Assembly: GCA_028280115.1 (NCBI GenBank)
Contig: JANQMJ010000016.1
Coordinates: 62,001 to 126,000 of the forward strand
Source of the DNA: Parvularculaceae bacterium
Lineage (GTDB): Bacteria; Pseudomonadota; Alphaproteobacteria; Caulobacterales; Parvularculaceae
Direction of reading: 5' to 3'
DNA length: 64,000 nucleotides
Part shown: piece after piece, positions 18,597 to 29,900 of the stretch
Layout: every line of letters starts with the position of its first letter
Position numbering within the stretch: the first letter of the stretch is position 1
Made by a program: the position numbers and the translations under genes
The notes under the pieces: model-generated
The model's database searches: none
What the model was told of the DNA's origin: nothing
What the model saw: the letters and a program-made list of their open reading frames with translations, nothing else

Positions 18597-20057
18597 CTAC
18601 TGCACCCGCCTTTCTTTGATTCTGACGCCTTCATCATCAACTTCCGGAATCGCGCGTCGCGGAATCGTCACAGGCTGAAGCGCGCCTATAGTCAGATTAG
18701 GATTTCGCACTTCGCGTCCTTCTTCAATCGGCACGGCGACCAGCGTCACAACCGGCGCCTCGCCAGTCGCGCGTCCTGCAGCACGCAGTTTTTGCAGCGC
18801 GCTATCGAGGCTGACGTAATAGTTCCTGGTCGTATGATGCGACGACGGATCGGTGAAGAACGCAAAGCTTCCCGCATAGGAAGGCGAACGCGGGTTCGCC
18901 GCCTCGTCCTCGCCCAGGTCCACATATACTTGCACGTAAAAGTCCTCATCCGCCGGCGGTGCGACATCGTCGAGGCGCAGGAGAAGGCGGCTTTCGCTGT
19001 CCACACTTTCCATCGCGGCTGCTTCGCGGGGTATTGTGAGCCGGGCTCGCAGCGGCTGGCCGACCGCCAACCGCAAATCGCGCTGGGGTTCAAATTCAGT
19101 GTTAGGTTCGAACCGGATCGCCGCGCCCCTTTCAAGGAATTCCCGCAGCCATGCTCTTTCCACCAATTGAAAGTTCAATAACCCGCAAGGGCCGGGCGGC
19201 ACGAACTGATAGGACAAGAGCGGGGCAAGAATCATCGAGTCAACACGGTAGGTGACCGGATTCCCGGCACCGTCCACCATTTGCCCGGTAATATCGAAAT
19301 TCGTGTAAAGAGGATCGTTGGTGTTGGCGTTGCCGCGCTGATTCCATTCAAACCAGAAATAGTCAATCACATTGTGATGAGTCCAAAACACCGGATCGAG
19401 CGGCGACATATAGCTGCCCATCGTGCCGCCAACAAAGCCGTGAATGTAATTGTGCGGATTTTCAAGCGCGCCAGTGCTTCCTTGGAAATCCGGCCCGTCC
19501 GCCAGGATCGGCCGCAGGCGCTTGGCCTTGCCACTGGCGAACAATTCGAAATCGGTCTCGTTCAGAATCGCGTCCATAGCGTCGCCGCCGACGATCGTTT
19601 CGGACGCCTCACTTGAAGAGGTTGCGGTTCTCGGCGAGTGAAATAAAGAGCTTCCGCCGACCCAGAACGGCGCGGGAATTTTGCGACTGCACGACCAATT
19701 CCAATACGGCAAACCGAAATCTGCATCGCCTAGCAGCGACTGACATATACGCTCAAACGACAATAGATAGGCCCGATGCCAGGGTAAAAAGAACCAATTG
19801 CCGTGTGGACAAAAATTCTGATGGATTTCCGCCTGACGCGTCCAGTTGCGTGGGTCAGAGTTCGGCAGCGCTTTCATCTGCGCCACTGCGTCGCGATAGG
19901 CCTGCACGATGGGATGGGTGTTGCTGAGCGTTGAAATGTCGCGGCGGCGCGGCCTATTCTGGATCGCCTCCTTGAGCGACTCGCAACCGCCGAGCGCAAA
20001 GAGAACGGCGAGGCTGCCGCCGCTGTAAAGCAGCGTTCGTCTGTCGACATAGGTCAT
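18597..20057 (-). CDS. Tat-exported tyrosinase/polyphenol oxidase lipoprotein
   Basis: A type-3 binuclear copper enzyme that would oxidise phenols or catechols with O2 outside the cytoplasm. The copper A ligands are His79, His85 and His94 (IHQNFCPHGNWFFLPWHRAY). Cys83 sits in a C-x-H arrangement with His85, as in the thioether-linked fungal enzymes. The copper B ligands are His202, His206 and one of His227/228 (NPHNYIHGF, FWTHHNVIDYFW). The N-terminus MTYVDRRTLLYSGG combines a twin-arginine with a lipobox (ALGGC, Cys25), so it is probably folded and loaded before Tat export and then lipidated. The C-terminal 250 residues form a beta-rich domain. The region upstream is AT-rich, unlike neighbouring DNA. 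Confidence 0.9.
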   Translation of the reverse strand: MTYVDRRTLLYSGGSLAVLFALGGCESLKEAIQNRPRRRDISTLSNTHPIVQAYRDAVAQMKALPNSDPRNWTRQAEIHQNFCPHGNWFFLPWHRAYLLSFERICQSLLGDADFGLPYWNWSCSRKIPAPFWVGGSSLFHSPRTATSSSEASETIVGGDAMDAILNETDFELFASGKAKRLRPILADGPDFQGSTGALENPHNYIHGFVGGTMGSYMSPLDPVFWTHHNVIDYFWFEWNQRGNANTNDPLYTNFDITGQMVDGAGNPVTYRVDSMILAPLLSYQFVPPGPCGLLNFQLVERAWLREFLERGAAIRFEPNTEFEPQRDLRLAVGQPLRARLTIPREAAAMESVDSESRLLLRLDDVAPPADEDFYVQVYVDLGEDEAANPRSPSYAGSFAFFTDPSSHHTTRNYYVSLDSALQKLRAAGRATGEAPVVTLVAVPIEEGREVRNPNLTIGALQPVTIPRRAIPEVDDEGVRIKERRVQ

Positions 20058-23187: not shown

Positions 23188-24171
23188 TTAGGACAAAAGC
23201 CCCTGATTGCCGAGCACGTAAACGAAAACGTACAAAAACAGCCAGACGACGTCGACGAAATGCCAATACCAGGCCGCCGCTTCAAAACCGAAATGGCGTT
23301 CCGCCGTAAAATGGCCGGCCATGGCGCGAAACAGGCAAACGGTCAGGAATATCGTGCCGATAATCACATGAAGGCCGTGAAAGCCCGTCGCCATGAAAAA
23401 CGACGAGCCGTATATGCCGCCGCCGGAAAACTGGAACATCCCAAAGTGCAACACCTCGGCGTACTCGATCGCCTGCAGCACGGTGAAAAAGAGCCCGAGA
23501 ATGATGGTCAGGACCAGACCCTGGATGAGGCCTTTCTGATCGTTGTTCTGCACGGCGTAATGCGCCCATGTCACGGTCGTGCCCGACAACAAGAGCACCA
23601 GCGTGTTGAGCAGCGGCAGGCCCCAGGGATTGAGCGGCTCAACGCCGACCGGCGGCCAGACGGCGCCCGTCGAATGAGTGCGGCCGTCATTGCCGAGACA
23701 GGCCGGCTCGCCGGCCGCGTTCAGCATTTGCGTCCCGTCGGCGAGCATCACCGGGTCGCACACCCCCGGAAACAGCGCCGCGCCGAAAAACGCCCAGAAC
23801 CAGGCGGCGAAGAACATCACCTCCGAGGCGATGAAAAGGACCATGCCGTAGCGCAGGCCAAGACGCACGACGAGGGAGGTGTTTTCCCCGGCGAGGCTTT
23901 CCTTAACGACGTCGCGCCACCACCCGATCATGGTGACGAGCAGGCCGGCAAAGCCAAGCCAGAACAGGCCGCTGCCGCTCAGGGAAAACCATTTGGCCGA
24001 GGACTGCCCATCGGGGCCGATCTCTACGCCGCCGATCATCAATCCGCCCGAGCCGGTTTGCATCCACGCCACGGCCCCGATCAGCATCACCCCCGCCGCC
24101 GCCGAACCGACCAGCGGCCAGGGAGAGGGATGAACCAGATGATAATCGTGTTTGACGTCAGCGCCGGCCAT
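23188..24171 (-). CDS. ctaE: Cytochrome c oxidase subunit III
   Basis: Core subunit III of the aa3-type oxidase, 327 residues with seven membrane helices. Early sequence [20 protein letters not shown] is the conserved N-terminus. Other landmarks are [20 protein letters not shown] (with the lipid-contact Glu), [36 protein letters not shown] and the last helix [20 protein letters not shown]. Between helices 3 and 4 a longer periplasmic loop (about residues 140-180) carries two Cys (PGVCDPV, GEPACLG), making the protein longer than the usual 260-275 residues. The gene follows ctaG after 116 nt and precedes the 42-codon gene and DUF983. Confidence 0.95.
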
Positions 24172-26011: not shown

Positions 26012-26383
26012 TTACCGGCCGAACACCGATTTCGCGCCGAACAGCACCAATATCAACAGCATAAAGGCGATAAAATAGGCCAGCAGCGTCGCCGCCGTCA
26101 TTTGCATGAAGACGCCCAGGCTCGATTCGAACTGCGCCGCCAGCCGGCCGCCGGTCACGGAACCGCCCTCGGGCGTGGGCCCGGCGAAGACCCCGCGCAA
26201 AAACCCGCCGATGGCGAAGAGTACCAGCGCCAGAAGCGTCATGGAGCCGATCTGCGTGCCGCGCCGCATCATCAGCGCGGCAATCACAATCGACCCGAAA
26301 GCGATGAGCAGTGAGATCCAGTCGCCCTGCAAAAAGGTCTGACGCAGAATGTCCAGCATCTGGTTCAAAAGGCTCGCAAGCAT
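26012..26383 (-). CDS. Small multi-helix membrane protein, paralogue of the 26503-26862 gene
   Basis: A 123-residue protein of unknown family with about three helices. It resembles the neighbouring 119-residue product along its length: F-L-x-G-D-W-I near residue 17-23, G-x-Q-I near 43-46, and a matching last helix ending VLFGAKSVFGR against VLFLGKSLIFRD. A Gly-rich loop (AGPTPEGGSVTGG) separates helices 2 and 3. The two genes are a tandem duplication between ctaD and ctaB. No metal or catalytic residues are evident. A link with the oxidase is suggested only by location. ATG 26383 has a tcctcc-complement ribosome site (aggaggg) just upstream. Confidence 0.7.
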   Translation of the reverse strand: MLASLLNQMLDILRQTFLQGDWISLLIAFGSIVIAALMMRRGTQIGSMTLLALVLFAIGGFLRGVFAGPTPEGGSVTGGRLAAQFESSLGVFMQMTAATLLAYFIAFMLLILVLFGAKSVFGR

Positions 26384-26502: not shown

Positions 26503-26862
26503 TCAGTCGCGGAAAATCAGCGATTTGCCGAGAAACAAAACGATGATCGCAACCGCAAAAGTGATGAGATAGCTGATCAGTTTAGAGCCCGGCATATCGG
26601 CGAGCGCCGCCCAGCCATCGGTAAAAGTGCTCAGATAGCTCGCCGGATCCGTCGGCGCTTCGCTTTGGACGCCGCCATAGATCAGCAAAATGACGCCGAG
26701 AACGATCATCGCCAGCACGCTGGTGCAAATGATTTGCCCAACGTTTTTCATTGCCGCAACGCCGACCAGCGCGGCGACAATCACCATGCCGAGGAAGATC
26801 CAGTCGCCGCCGAGAAAAATCGACTCCGCAACCGCGCGGATTTCAGCAATAAAAGGTTCCAT
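26503..26862 (-). CDS. Small multi-helix membrane protein, paralogue of the 26012-26383 gene
   Basis: A 119-residue protein with three clear helices. Residues ESIFLGGDWIFLGMVIVAAL and the C-terminal PGSKLISYLITFAVAIIVLF-LGKSLIFRD match the next gene's FLQGDWI and AKSVFGR regions, so the pair arose by duplication. The loop EAPTDPASYLSTFTDGWAAL faces one side. No known family was recognised. It lies after the ctaD terminator, so it probably has its own promoter within the roughly 110 bp upstream, which are T-rich on the minus strand. ATG at 26862 is preceded by aggggcg as a weak ribosome site. Confidence 0.7.
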   Translation of the reverse strand: MEPFIAEIRAVAESIFLGGDWIFLGMVIVAALVGVAAMKNVGQIICTSVLAMIVLGVILLIYGGVQSEAPTDPASYLSTFTDGWAALADMPGSKLISYLITFAVAIIVLFLGKSLIFRD

Positions 26863-28724: not shown

Positions 28725-29900
28725 CTATCGCGCTAGGGCGCCGGCGTTCGCCAGGCGCGCGGCGGCGTCGCCGCAAAGCGGTTCGGCGGCGAGTTCTTCG
28801 GGCGAGCGTTCAACGCCGAATTCGGATTGTTTCGCTCTTATCCAGCGGCAAAACGCCTGGACGGATACGGCCTCCACTGCGATGGGCATAAAGGCGTGCT
28901 TAATCCCGCATATTTCCGAACACTGGCCGTAGTAAACGCCCTCGCGATCGGCTTTGAACCATGTCTCGTTGATGCGCCCGGGAACGGCGTCGATCTTGAT
29001 TGCAAAAGAGGGCAGCGCCCAGGCGTGAATAACGTCGCTCGCGGTCACGGTAACGCGAATGGTTTCGCCGACCGGCACGATAACGCGATTGTCGACTTCC
29101 AAGAGGTAAAGCTCCGGCGTCGTTTCGCTTTCGGGGGCCATGTTGGAAATAAAGTCGAAATCGCCGTATTCGGGATAGGCGTAAGTCCAGTTCCACTGGT
29201 TGCCGGTCACTTTCAGAGTCATGGCGGGCGCCAGCGCGACCTCGCGCTTGTCTTCGCCGAAGAGGCCGAACAGTCCGTTCGGCCCGACGAGGCTGCGGCC
29301 GCCGTTCATGATGACGCGCTCGCCCGCCGCCGGCGGCGCGTTCAGCGAAACGGTCAGTTCTTCTTCACCGAACCCTTCCAGGCTGTAGTCGACGCGGTGC
29401 TGCAATCGGCGCATTTGCGATCCGTCGTCGATGAAGACCTGAAGATGGGCCGGCCGGGCGACTTTGCGGGTCGCCGCTTCAAATCTGTTTTCGAAAATGA
29501 AGTTTGTCGTCCGGCCGTCGCCTTGGCCGATGGACTGCTTGCCGTCAGGAATGACGTCTTCCTTGTAGAGAAGGTCGAAGGACGGCAGCGCGATGACAAG
29601 AAGAATGAGAATCGGAACGCCGGTCCATATCACTTCGACCAGCGTGTTGTGGCTGAACTTGCGGGGCGTCGGATTGAACCTTGCGTTATAGCGCACCATT
29701 ACCCACAGGAGCAGCGCCAGAACGAACAGGCTGATGCCGACGATGACCGGCATCAGGATGACGTTATGGAAAAAGTGGACTTCCTCGGCCAGCGCCGATT
29801 GGGCCGGCTGCAGTGCGATCCCGCCGGGGGTGGCTTGCGCCAGTGCGGCCGCCGACGCCCAGGCGCCCAGCCCTGATAGTCCTGAAATCAGTTTTTTCAT
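28725..29900 (-). CDS. ctaC: Cytochrome c oxidase subunit II with unusual ~100-residue insertion
   Basis: Receives electrons from cytochrome c through its CuA site. A signal peptide ([20 protein letters not shown]) is followed by two helices (about 45-68 and 88-108) and the periplasmic cupredoxin domain. CuA ligands are complete: His292 ([10 protein letters not shown]), Cys327, Glu329 and Cys331 ([10 protein letters not shown]), His335 and Met338. The aromatic electron-entry patch is [15 protein letters not shown]. Between the second helix (LYKEDVIPD) and that patch, where most homologues have only a few residues, lies an extra segment of about 100 residues (118-227). A C-terminal tail with a further Cys ([11 protein letters not shown]) is also present. 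ctaD follows. Confidence 0.94.

Follow-up and report, generated by a model that had tools for sequence, protein, structure and literature searches.

A phage-tail-like domain in cytochrome c oxidase subunit II of the Parvularculaceae

Subunit II of cytochrome c oxidase (CtaC) in the bacterial family Parvularculaceae carries a domain inserted between its second transmembrane helix (TM2) and its CuA domain, and this domain is very probably related to domains of phage tails. The result is a domain architecture that is new for this well-known enzyme. We consider it fairly probable that the insert is a phage-tail module which was captured once in the ancestor of the family and is now a docking platform in the periplasm; the docking role of the domain, taken by itself, is a possibility that our analysis does not quite raise to a probability. 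Searches of the open-access literature listed no report of the insert, and a term search of the main text of a paper on alphaproteobacterial oxygen reductases (PMC6431628) returned neither Parvularcula nor CtaC. The gene described here lies in a stretch of 64,000 nucleotides from a Parvularculaceae genome, referred to below as the window; the coordinates of its parts are given in Table 1.

The subunit II gene and its insert

By every feature tested, the protein encoded in the window is CtaC. It matches the Pfam families COX2_TM (residues 23-110, 77.2 bits against a cut-off of 22.8) and COX2, which covers the CuA domain (residues 227-345, 166.7 bits against 22), as well as the TIGR02866 CoxB equivalog (167 against 147.7), and its nearest solved relative is COX2 of Paracoccus. 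A preliminary description of this DNA had called the CuA ligands intact; all six (H292, C327, E329, C331, H335 and M338) prove invariant in the 32 aligned CtaC proteins of the family, as do the tryptophans of the heme patch. The gene is the first of a same-strand run that continues with ctaD (COX1), two small membrane proteins, ctaB (UbiA family), ctaG (CtaG_Cox11) and ctaE (COX3), with a SURF1 gene farther along. Near the oxidase operon, a protein of the tyrosinase family (PF00264) with a lipoprotein-like start is encoded at window positions 18597-20057 on the minus strand.

Table 1. Parts of the ctaC gene and of its product, in window positions
Feature	Position	Strand	Basis
ctaC, cytochrome c oxidase subunit II, 391 aa	28725..29900	minus	COX2_TM, COX2 and TIGR02866 CoxB above cut-off
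N-terminal part with two transmembrane helices, residues 24-116	29553..29831	minus	Pfam COX2_TM 23-110; long helices in the AlphaFold2 model
Insert of CtaC, residues 118-224	29229..29549	minus	Alignment of 32 carriers and 18 non-carriers
Phage-tail-anchor-like beta domain within the insert, residues ~121-199	29304..29540	minus	hhalign probability 97, reverse HMM search, AlphaFold2 fold matches
N-D-F loop (N-R-F in the window's CtaC), residues 138-140	29481..29489	minus	N and F invariant in 32 carriers; outside the phage consensus
GGRS motif, residues 200-203	29292..29303	minus	Conserved in carriers; past the stretch aligned to the phage domain
Variable linker from beta domain to CuA domain, residues 204-224	29229..29291	minus	36% mean pairwise identity (residues 203-224)
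CuA domain with intact ligands, residues 225-356	28833..29228	minus	Pfam and alignment

The extra segment was originally put at about 100 residues between TM2 and the CuA domain, and both alignment and motif spacing bear this out, with a length of about 105 residues; the coordinates and residue numbers first assigned to CtaC and to the insert hold as well. In 12 insert-bearing loci of named genomes, 129-143 residues separate the TM2 motif (EVIWT) from the heme-patch motif (KxxGxxW). Among 68 other named loci the separation is 36-37 residues in 54, 47 in one and 70 in seven, the pattern giving no value in the remaining six. The insert thus adds some 93-107 residues to the usual linker. The segment had been described as folded-looking, and structure prediction agrees: in the AlphaFold2 model of the whole protein, residues 121-200 have a pLDDT of 88-97 in blocks of ten, and the insert modelled alone has a mean pLDDT of 89 and seven strands. 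The alignment of 32 family and 18 other proteins, together with 25 further genes, excludes a mere artefact of alignment, which had been named as a possible explanation. An artefact of assembly or reading frame was likewise rejected, the matches of the family being free of internal stops and the 25 further genes being confirmed as CtaC, one of them (L256) without a match to the CuA pattern.

The site of the insert varies in other ways. In 13 of the 32 family proteins (L005, L008, L010, L014-L016 and L019-L025) the linker that follows the phage-like domain is lengthened and bears two cysteines ten residues apart, which perhaps form a disulfide hairpin; the CtaC of the window has [13 protein letters not shown] at this place. 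A different and shorter extra segment occupies the same site in the seven named loci with a spacing of 70 instead of 36 (L137-L139, L141-L143 and L146), and a different segment of about 20-40 residues is found there in four of the 18 aligned proteins from other families (L054, L055, L058 and L060).

In the samples searched, the insert is confined to one family. All 32 aligned CtaC proteins of the family have the insert, and none of the 18 aligned proteins from other families of the order has it. The former were drawn from 36 family genomes among 60 relatives, and in the other four ctaC is divided between two contigs (one genome), reduced to a stub (one) or missing (two); the latter were fetched out of 23 matching genomes of other families. 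In the search that yielded the 60 relatives, matches in genomes of the same family extend across the insert; genomes of other families match piecewise on either side of it. A profile of the insert matches 57 of 62 family genomes, including all 42 good ones and all nine genera, and each of the 57 matches sits in CtaC (32 aligned, 25 checked singly). The five remaining family genomes all lack a complete ctaC: three show no match for the gene, one a stub at a contig end and one a distant paralogue only.

Beyond the family, a scan of 249 genomes of the order, in which at most 19 candidates were scored per genome, placed all 47 insert-profile matches in Parvularculaceae. At the level of the class (385 genomes) and of the phylum (398 genomes), where at most 12 candidates were scored per genome, the gene of the window was the only strong match. 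Among the best 80 of 583 loci in named genomes, 12 have the insert and 68 lack it; 11 of the 12 carriers are labelled as Parvularculaceae or as one of its genera (Parvularcula, Amphiplicatus, Aquisalinus, Marinicaulis), and one as alphaproteobacterium. Carriers labelled as Parvularculaceae score identically to genomes of the window's genus (579.4 for L125 and L002, 566.2 for L126 and L003), by which the family of the window would be Parvularculaceae. These carriers include Amphiplicatus metriothermophilus and members of Aquisalinus, Parvularcula and Marinicaulis/Hyphococcus, Marinicaulis being placed under Hyphococcus by NCBI. A widespread insert is rejected by its confinement to one family in the order, class, phylum and named-genome samples. 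The preliminary description had suggested mapping the insert by clade, and had allowed that many families might prove to carry it and that it might have been described before; the genomes sampled place it in the Parvularculaceae alone.

Relationship to phage tail proteins

Single sequences give a faint signal that points to phage tails, a relationship absent from the preliminary description. Pfam, applied to the whole protein, places a match to DUF2460 (PF09343) at the insert with an E-value of 0.0022; the insert of the window reaches 20.2 bits against a cut-off of 30.4, and only over profile positions 94-169 of 205. In a scan of 32 inserts, DUF2460 is matched by eight (best E 0.00045) and the next family by two, Phage_T7_tail (PF03906) being matched by one, below its curated cut-off, with an E-value of 0.24. 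None of the 32 inserts scanned reaches a curated Pfam cut-off. Two PHROGs have the largest numbers of matching inserts (11 and 10 of 32, best E 0.004); neither carries a named function, and the insert of the window itself matches none. Tail and virion PHROGs are matched by one or two inserts each.

Comparison of profiles strengthens the signal considerably. The profile of the 32 inserts was aligned by hhalign to the N-terminal domains of 22 putative tail fibre sequences, which are matches to PF03906 in 190 genomes of the class, nine of them above the PF03906 cut-off (a twenty-third, L121, was left out for its internal stops). The alignment has a probability of 97 and a score of 59.9-63.3, and is co-linear over 66-70 columns. 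Three hundred column shuffles of the same comparison gave a mean score of 11.2 (standard deviation 2.3, maximum 19.7), reversed profiles 12-14, and real-protein controls, taken as windows of the CtaD, CtaE and cytochrome c1 alignments, at most 17.3. Against nine DUF2460 domains (one of ten loci, L032, was missed by the extraction pattern and left out) the probability is 78-80 and the score 32-33, with a shuffle maximum of 26.2. Origin of the insert by duplication of the CuA (cupredoxin) domain was rejected, as hhalign of the insert against the CuA domain of the same protein returned a probability of 0.21 over eight columns.

The relationship also holds in reverse. An HMM of the 22 tail fibre sequences, built without any CtaC sequence, was run over 2559 open reading frames and CtaC proteins; ranks 1-38 are all carriers of the insert (E up to 0.36), and the first protein that is not a carrier comes at rank 39 (E 1.1). 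Up to an E-value of 20 the model recovers 42 of 44 carriers (37 distinct sequences) and misses all 76 of the other CtaC proteins recognised by motif. Genome scans with the insert profile gave seven matches outside CtaC in total. The four best are phage tail proteins by PHROGs (G760, E 2.1e-4; G317, 0.0031; G170, 0.0048; G002, 0.0056), and the other three (E 0.0069, 0.045 and 0.048) are a DJ-1 family protein, an ETF alpha and a short open reading frame, the last of which is taken for a chance match. Among sequences of solved structures, the best match of the insert profile (E 0.7) is a tailspike or tail fibre sequence that includes 8ck1, later the first in the fold search, and no COX2 is matched at E-values up to 10. 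A search for close phage relatives, in which IMG/VR viral contigs were scanned with one insert, confirmed none. The best tblastn match in phage records (E 0.06) is a gene of Nitratiruptor phage NrS-4 which adjoins the tape measure gene and itself matches DUF2460. The genome of the window also holds a full-length DUF2460 tail protein (G000:C19:65519-66133, L034), which may belong to a gene transfer agent cluster.

The insert and the tail fibre domain have a common pattern, GDG...F.F, (H/D)LxV, DYxVxG and P..G..(V/I)xI. Outside it, the conservation of N138, F140, R145, H152 and GGRS (200-203) is peculiar to CtaC, and N138, F140, R145 and G201, all outside the phage consensus, are invariant in the 32 carriers. 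The match, confined to the beta domain, ends at column 68 of the 114 columns of the tail fibre alignment. From there CtaC runs on into GGRS and its linker towards CuA, and the insert has no counterpart to the later part of PF03906. Because single sequences stay below the cut-offs and the rest of PF03906 is missing, we regard the insert as a distant relative of PF03906 and PF09343 and not as a member of either.

The predicted fold leads to the same proteins. When the insert-only model is searched against the PDB with Foldseek, each of its ten best matches is a chain from a phage tail complex, the best with an E-value of 0.0018 and none below 0.001. In VIA-align, the insert model is matched with 8ck1 at Z 10.0 (5.8 Å over 92 residues), LME-1 at 9.5 (2.5 Å over 73), T7 tail proteins at 9.2 (2.6 Å over 72), the T7 proximal half fibre at 8.5 (1.7 Å over 69), the N-terminal domain of T7 gp17 (7boz_b) at 8.4 (2.0 Å over 71) and a baseplate-tail chain of roseophage R4C at 6.0 (3.3 Å over 71); Z-scores of 8-10 are only somewhat above the 7-8 typical of unmatched models, and unrelated beta domains come next at Z 4-6. 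When the whole CtaC model is compared with viral structures, the top rank goes to a tail fibre protein and rank five to 'Bacteriophage T7 tail fibre protein' (1.6 Å over 80 columns), in a comparison where many rows have an rmsd above 7 Å. Absences from the VIA-align and Foldseek lists were given no evidential weight.

Conservation, possible partners and competing explanations

The insert is less conserved than the parts of the protein that surround it. Mean pairwise identity is 52% in the insert core and 36% in the C-terminal linker, against 70-72% in the transmembrane and CuA parts. For the insert core, the four least-diverged pairs give Nei-Gojobori dN/dS values of 0.34, 0.02, 0.05 and 0.05; three of these pairs lie among L004, L006 and L007 and so share members. 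Among the best 25 of 198 pairs by low divergence the ratio rises to 1.0 (L024-L025), in a set of pairs limited to an overall dS below 1.5 and with dS near saturation in many. The net charge of the CuA domain is -5 to -13, and that of the insert -6 to +3.

Other components of the oxidase display features of their own in this family. The small membrane proteins between ctaD and ctaB, here named SmA and SmB (window positions 26012-26383 and 26503-26862, minus strand), are 28% identical to each other. By tblastn, SmA is present in six of the eight family loci that span the region and SmB at its own place in four; neither turned up among 68 loci from other families, although ctaB is seen in 64 of these. 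Pfam gives no match for SmA and a weak one to Trp_oprn_chp (E 0.0025) for SmB; the two are possible new oxidase subunits. As an obligatory partner of the insert they are rejected, being undetected in two of the eight carriers that span the region (L135 and L136). The product of ctaE (window positions 23188-24171, minus strand) has a conserved family-specific loop of about 15-20 residues, [16 protein letters not shown]-like, after its third helix. The loop is found in all nine family rows and is absent or shorter in the eight listed of 20 other rows; going by solved COX3, we take it to be periplasmic. CtaD has no family-specific insert of at least four columns in a comparison of 11 family and 24 other sequences. 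Cytochrome c1 was compared in 22 of 30 fetched loci, less L214, which was in the wrong frame. A short loop with two cysteines (CPxGxPDxxDC-like) is present in all 12 usable family rows (for example L226, G000:C4:114262-115065) and in none of nine others, and a variable longer loop is partly common to another family; these 12 and nine rows reveal no change of domain size in step with the insert of CtaC.

On the reading that we favour, a beta domain like the anchor of T7-type tail fibres, a relative of which occurs in DUF2460 tail proteins, would have entered the linker between TM2 and CuA once, in the ancestor of the Parvularculaceae, and would have been kept in frame ever since. That the transfer ran from phage to host is suggested by the distribution of the domain, which tail proteins contain widely and in diverse forms and CtaC in one family only. 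By the topology of the subunit, the domain should stand in the periplasm beside the CuA domain. It would leave the acidic docking face for cytochrome c in place, and docking of cytochrome c is probably unchanged, since the CuA domain keeps its acidic charge. A phage anchor domain similar to the N-terminus of the T7 tail fibre attaches the fibre to the virion, as described in PMC6872550, and in CtaC the domain may serve, as in phages, as a platform for docking between proteins. With cytochrome c docking probably unchanged and the related phage domain being one of attachment, it is some other protein that would be docked. The residues conserved specifically in CtaC (NDF, R145, H152 and GGRS) would be the likely contact surface. 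Candidate partners would be, in the first place, the family-specific parts of the same oxidase, namely the extra loop of CtaE and SmA/SmB, and in the second, cytochrome c1 or a membrane-bound cytochrome c in a supercomplex. Taken further, the tail fibre anchor in CtaC might be the docking hub of an enlarged, family-specific oxidase, which would also include the additional loop of CtaE and, in many of the family's members, SmA/SmB; it might organise accessory subunits or a supercomplex; this extension we offer tentatively.

Several other explanations would account for part of these observations. The captured domain might have no partner at all and persist as a stable, self-folding plug in a permissive loop, with selection acting only against misfolding. 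The lower conservation of the insert core and the high variability of the linker would fit such a plug, as would dN/dS near 1 in some of the best 25 of 198 pairs and the tolerance of different extra segments at the same site in other relatives. A neutral insert, however, would be expected to be lost somewhere, and so its retention in all 57 family genomes with an assembled gene, across nine genera, counts against this explanation; the invariance of N138, F140, R145 and G201, which the phage consensus does not account for, opposes it too, and we judge it rather unlikely. Another possibility dispenses with the phage altogether and derives the beta domain independently, its phage likeness being due to convergence or to a very common fold. 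Small all-beta domains do match many unrelated folds at Z 4-6, and single-sequence scores remain under the curated cut-offs. Yet the signal is present in sequence as well as in fold, runs co-linearly and far above both shuffled and real-protein controls, and is strong enough for a tail fibre HMM to pick out the carriers and no other CtaC, which makes an independent origin very improbable.

Two further proposals concern what the insert binds. The preliminary description had suggested a dedicated cytochrome c, an assembly factor or an accessory subunit as what it could bind, a reasonable conjecture with which the possible docking role proposed above agrees. For the first of these, direct docking of a dedicated cytochrome c, speaks its place immediately N-terminal to the heme-patch tryptophans, on what the topology suggests to be the periplasmic side. 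The charge difference speaks against it, the CuA domain being acidic and the insert near neutral, so that the usual docking face seems unchanged; we hold direct docking of cytochrome c to be improbable. Alternatively, the insert could bind a carbohydrate such as peptidoglycan and thereby tether the oxidase. The distal tail insertion domain of RcGTA, which PMC7296036 describes as homologous to a domain with an oligosaccharide-binding fold, is proposed there to bind a sugar receptor. The closer relative of the insert is, however, the T7-type anchor (score 60 against 33), an attachment domain according to PMC6872550, and carbohydrate binding appears very improbable. The capture of a phage module that may now serve in docking accommodates these observations best.

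Comparison with known systems

Compared with CtaC/CoxB of the aa3 type, as in Paracoccus denitrificans (1ar1), the protein of the window has the same two transmembrane helices, heme-patch tryptophans and full set of CuA ligands, and its operon has ctaD, ctaB, ctaG and ctaE in common; it differs by the additional ~105 residues between TM2 and the heme patch. The insert is a simple marker for one bacterial family. Domesticated phage parts are otherwise known from secretion systems, gene transfer agents and tailocins, all of which are still machines for injection or particles. Here a module of virion attachment appears to have become a permanent component of a catalytic membrane complex with a housekeeping role, in the very subunit by which electrons enter. 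It thereby offers a test of the reuse of attachment modules and a natural experiment on docking to cytochrome oxidase.

Among phage proteins, the insert is closest to the N-terminal domain of T7-type tail fibres (PF03906; 7boz for gp17; 8ck1). It shares their beta domain and motif pattern, and several of their chains superpose on its model at 1.7-2.6 Å over about 70 residues. The domain stands at the N-terminus of the fibre in T7, whereas in CtaC it sits in the middle of a membrane enzyme, has a longer NDF...R...H loop and ends in GGRS. The likeness to DUF2460 is weaker (score 33 against 60) and lies in profile positions 94-169; the DUF2460 protein is a separate protein of a virion-like particle, whereas the insert is part of CtaC. 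We take RcGTA g12 (Rcc01695) to be a member of DUF2460, a name that does not occur in PMC7296036, and the matched part to be presumably the distal tail insertion domain of RcGTA.

Enlarged COX2 proteins are also found in ciliates and elsewhere, and they likewise bear in-frame insertions outside the membrane. An insertion in COX2 of Tetrahymena recruits a Tim hexamer (PMC10060162), and such insertions are mentioned also for brown algae and bacteria (PMC5374615). The latter account locates them past the heme patch and before the CuA half, a site other than that of the Parvularculaceae insert, and the descriptions of them drawn on here from the two papers (PMC5374615, PMC10060162) state no relationship to phages, whereas the insert of Parvularculaceae CtaC very probably has one.
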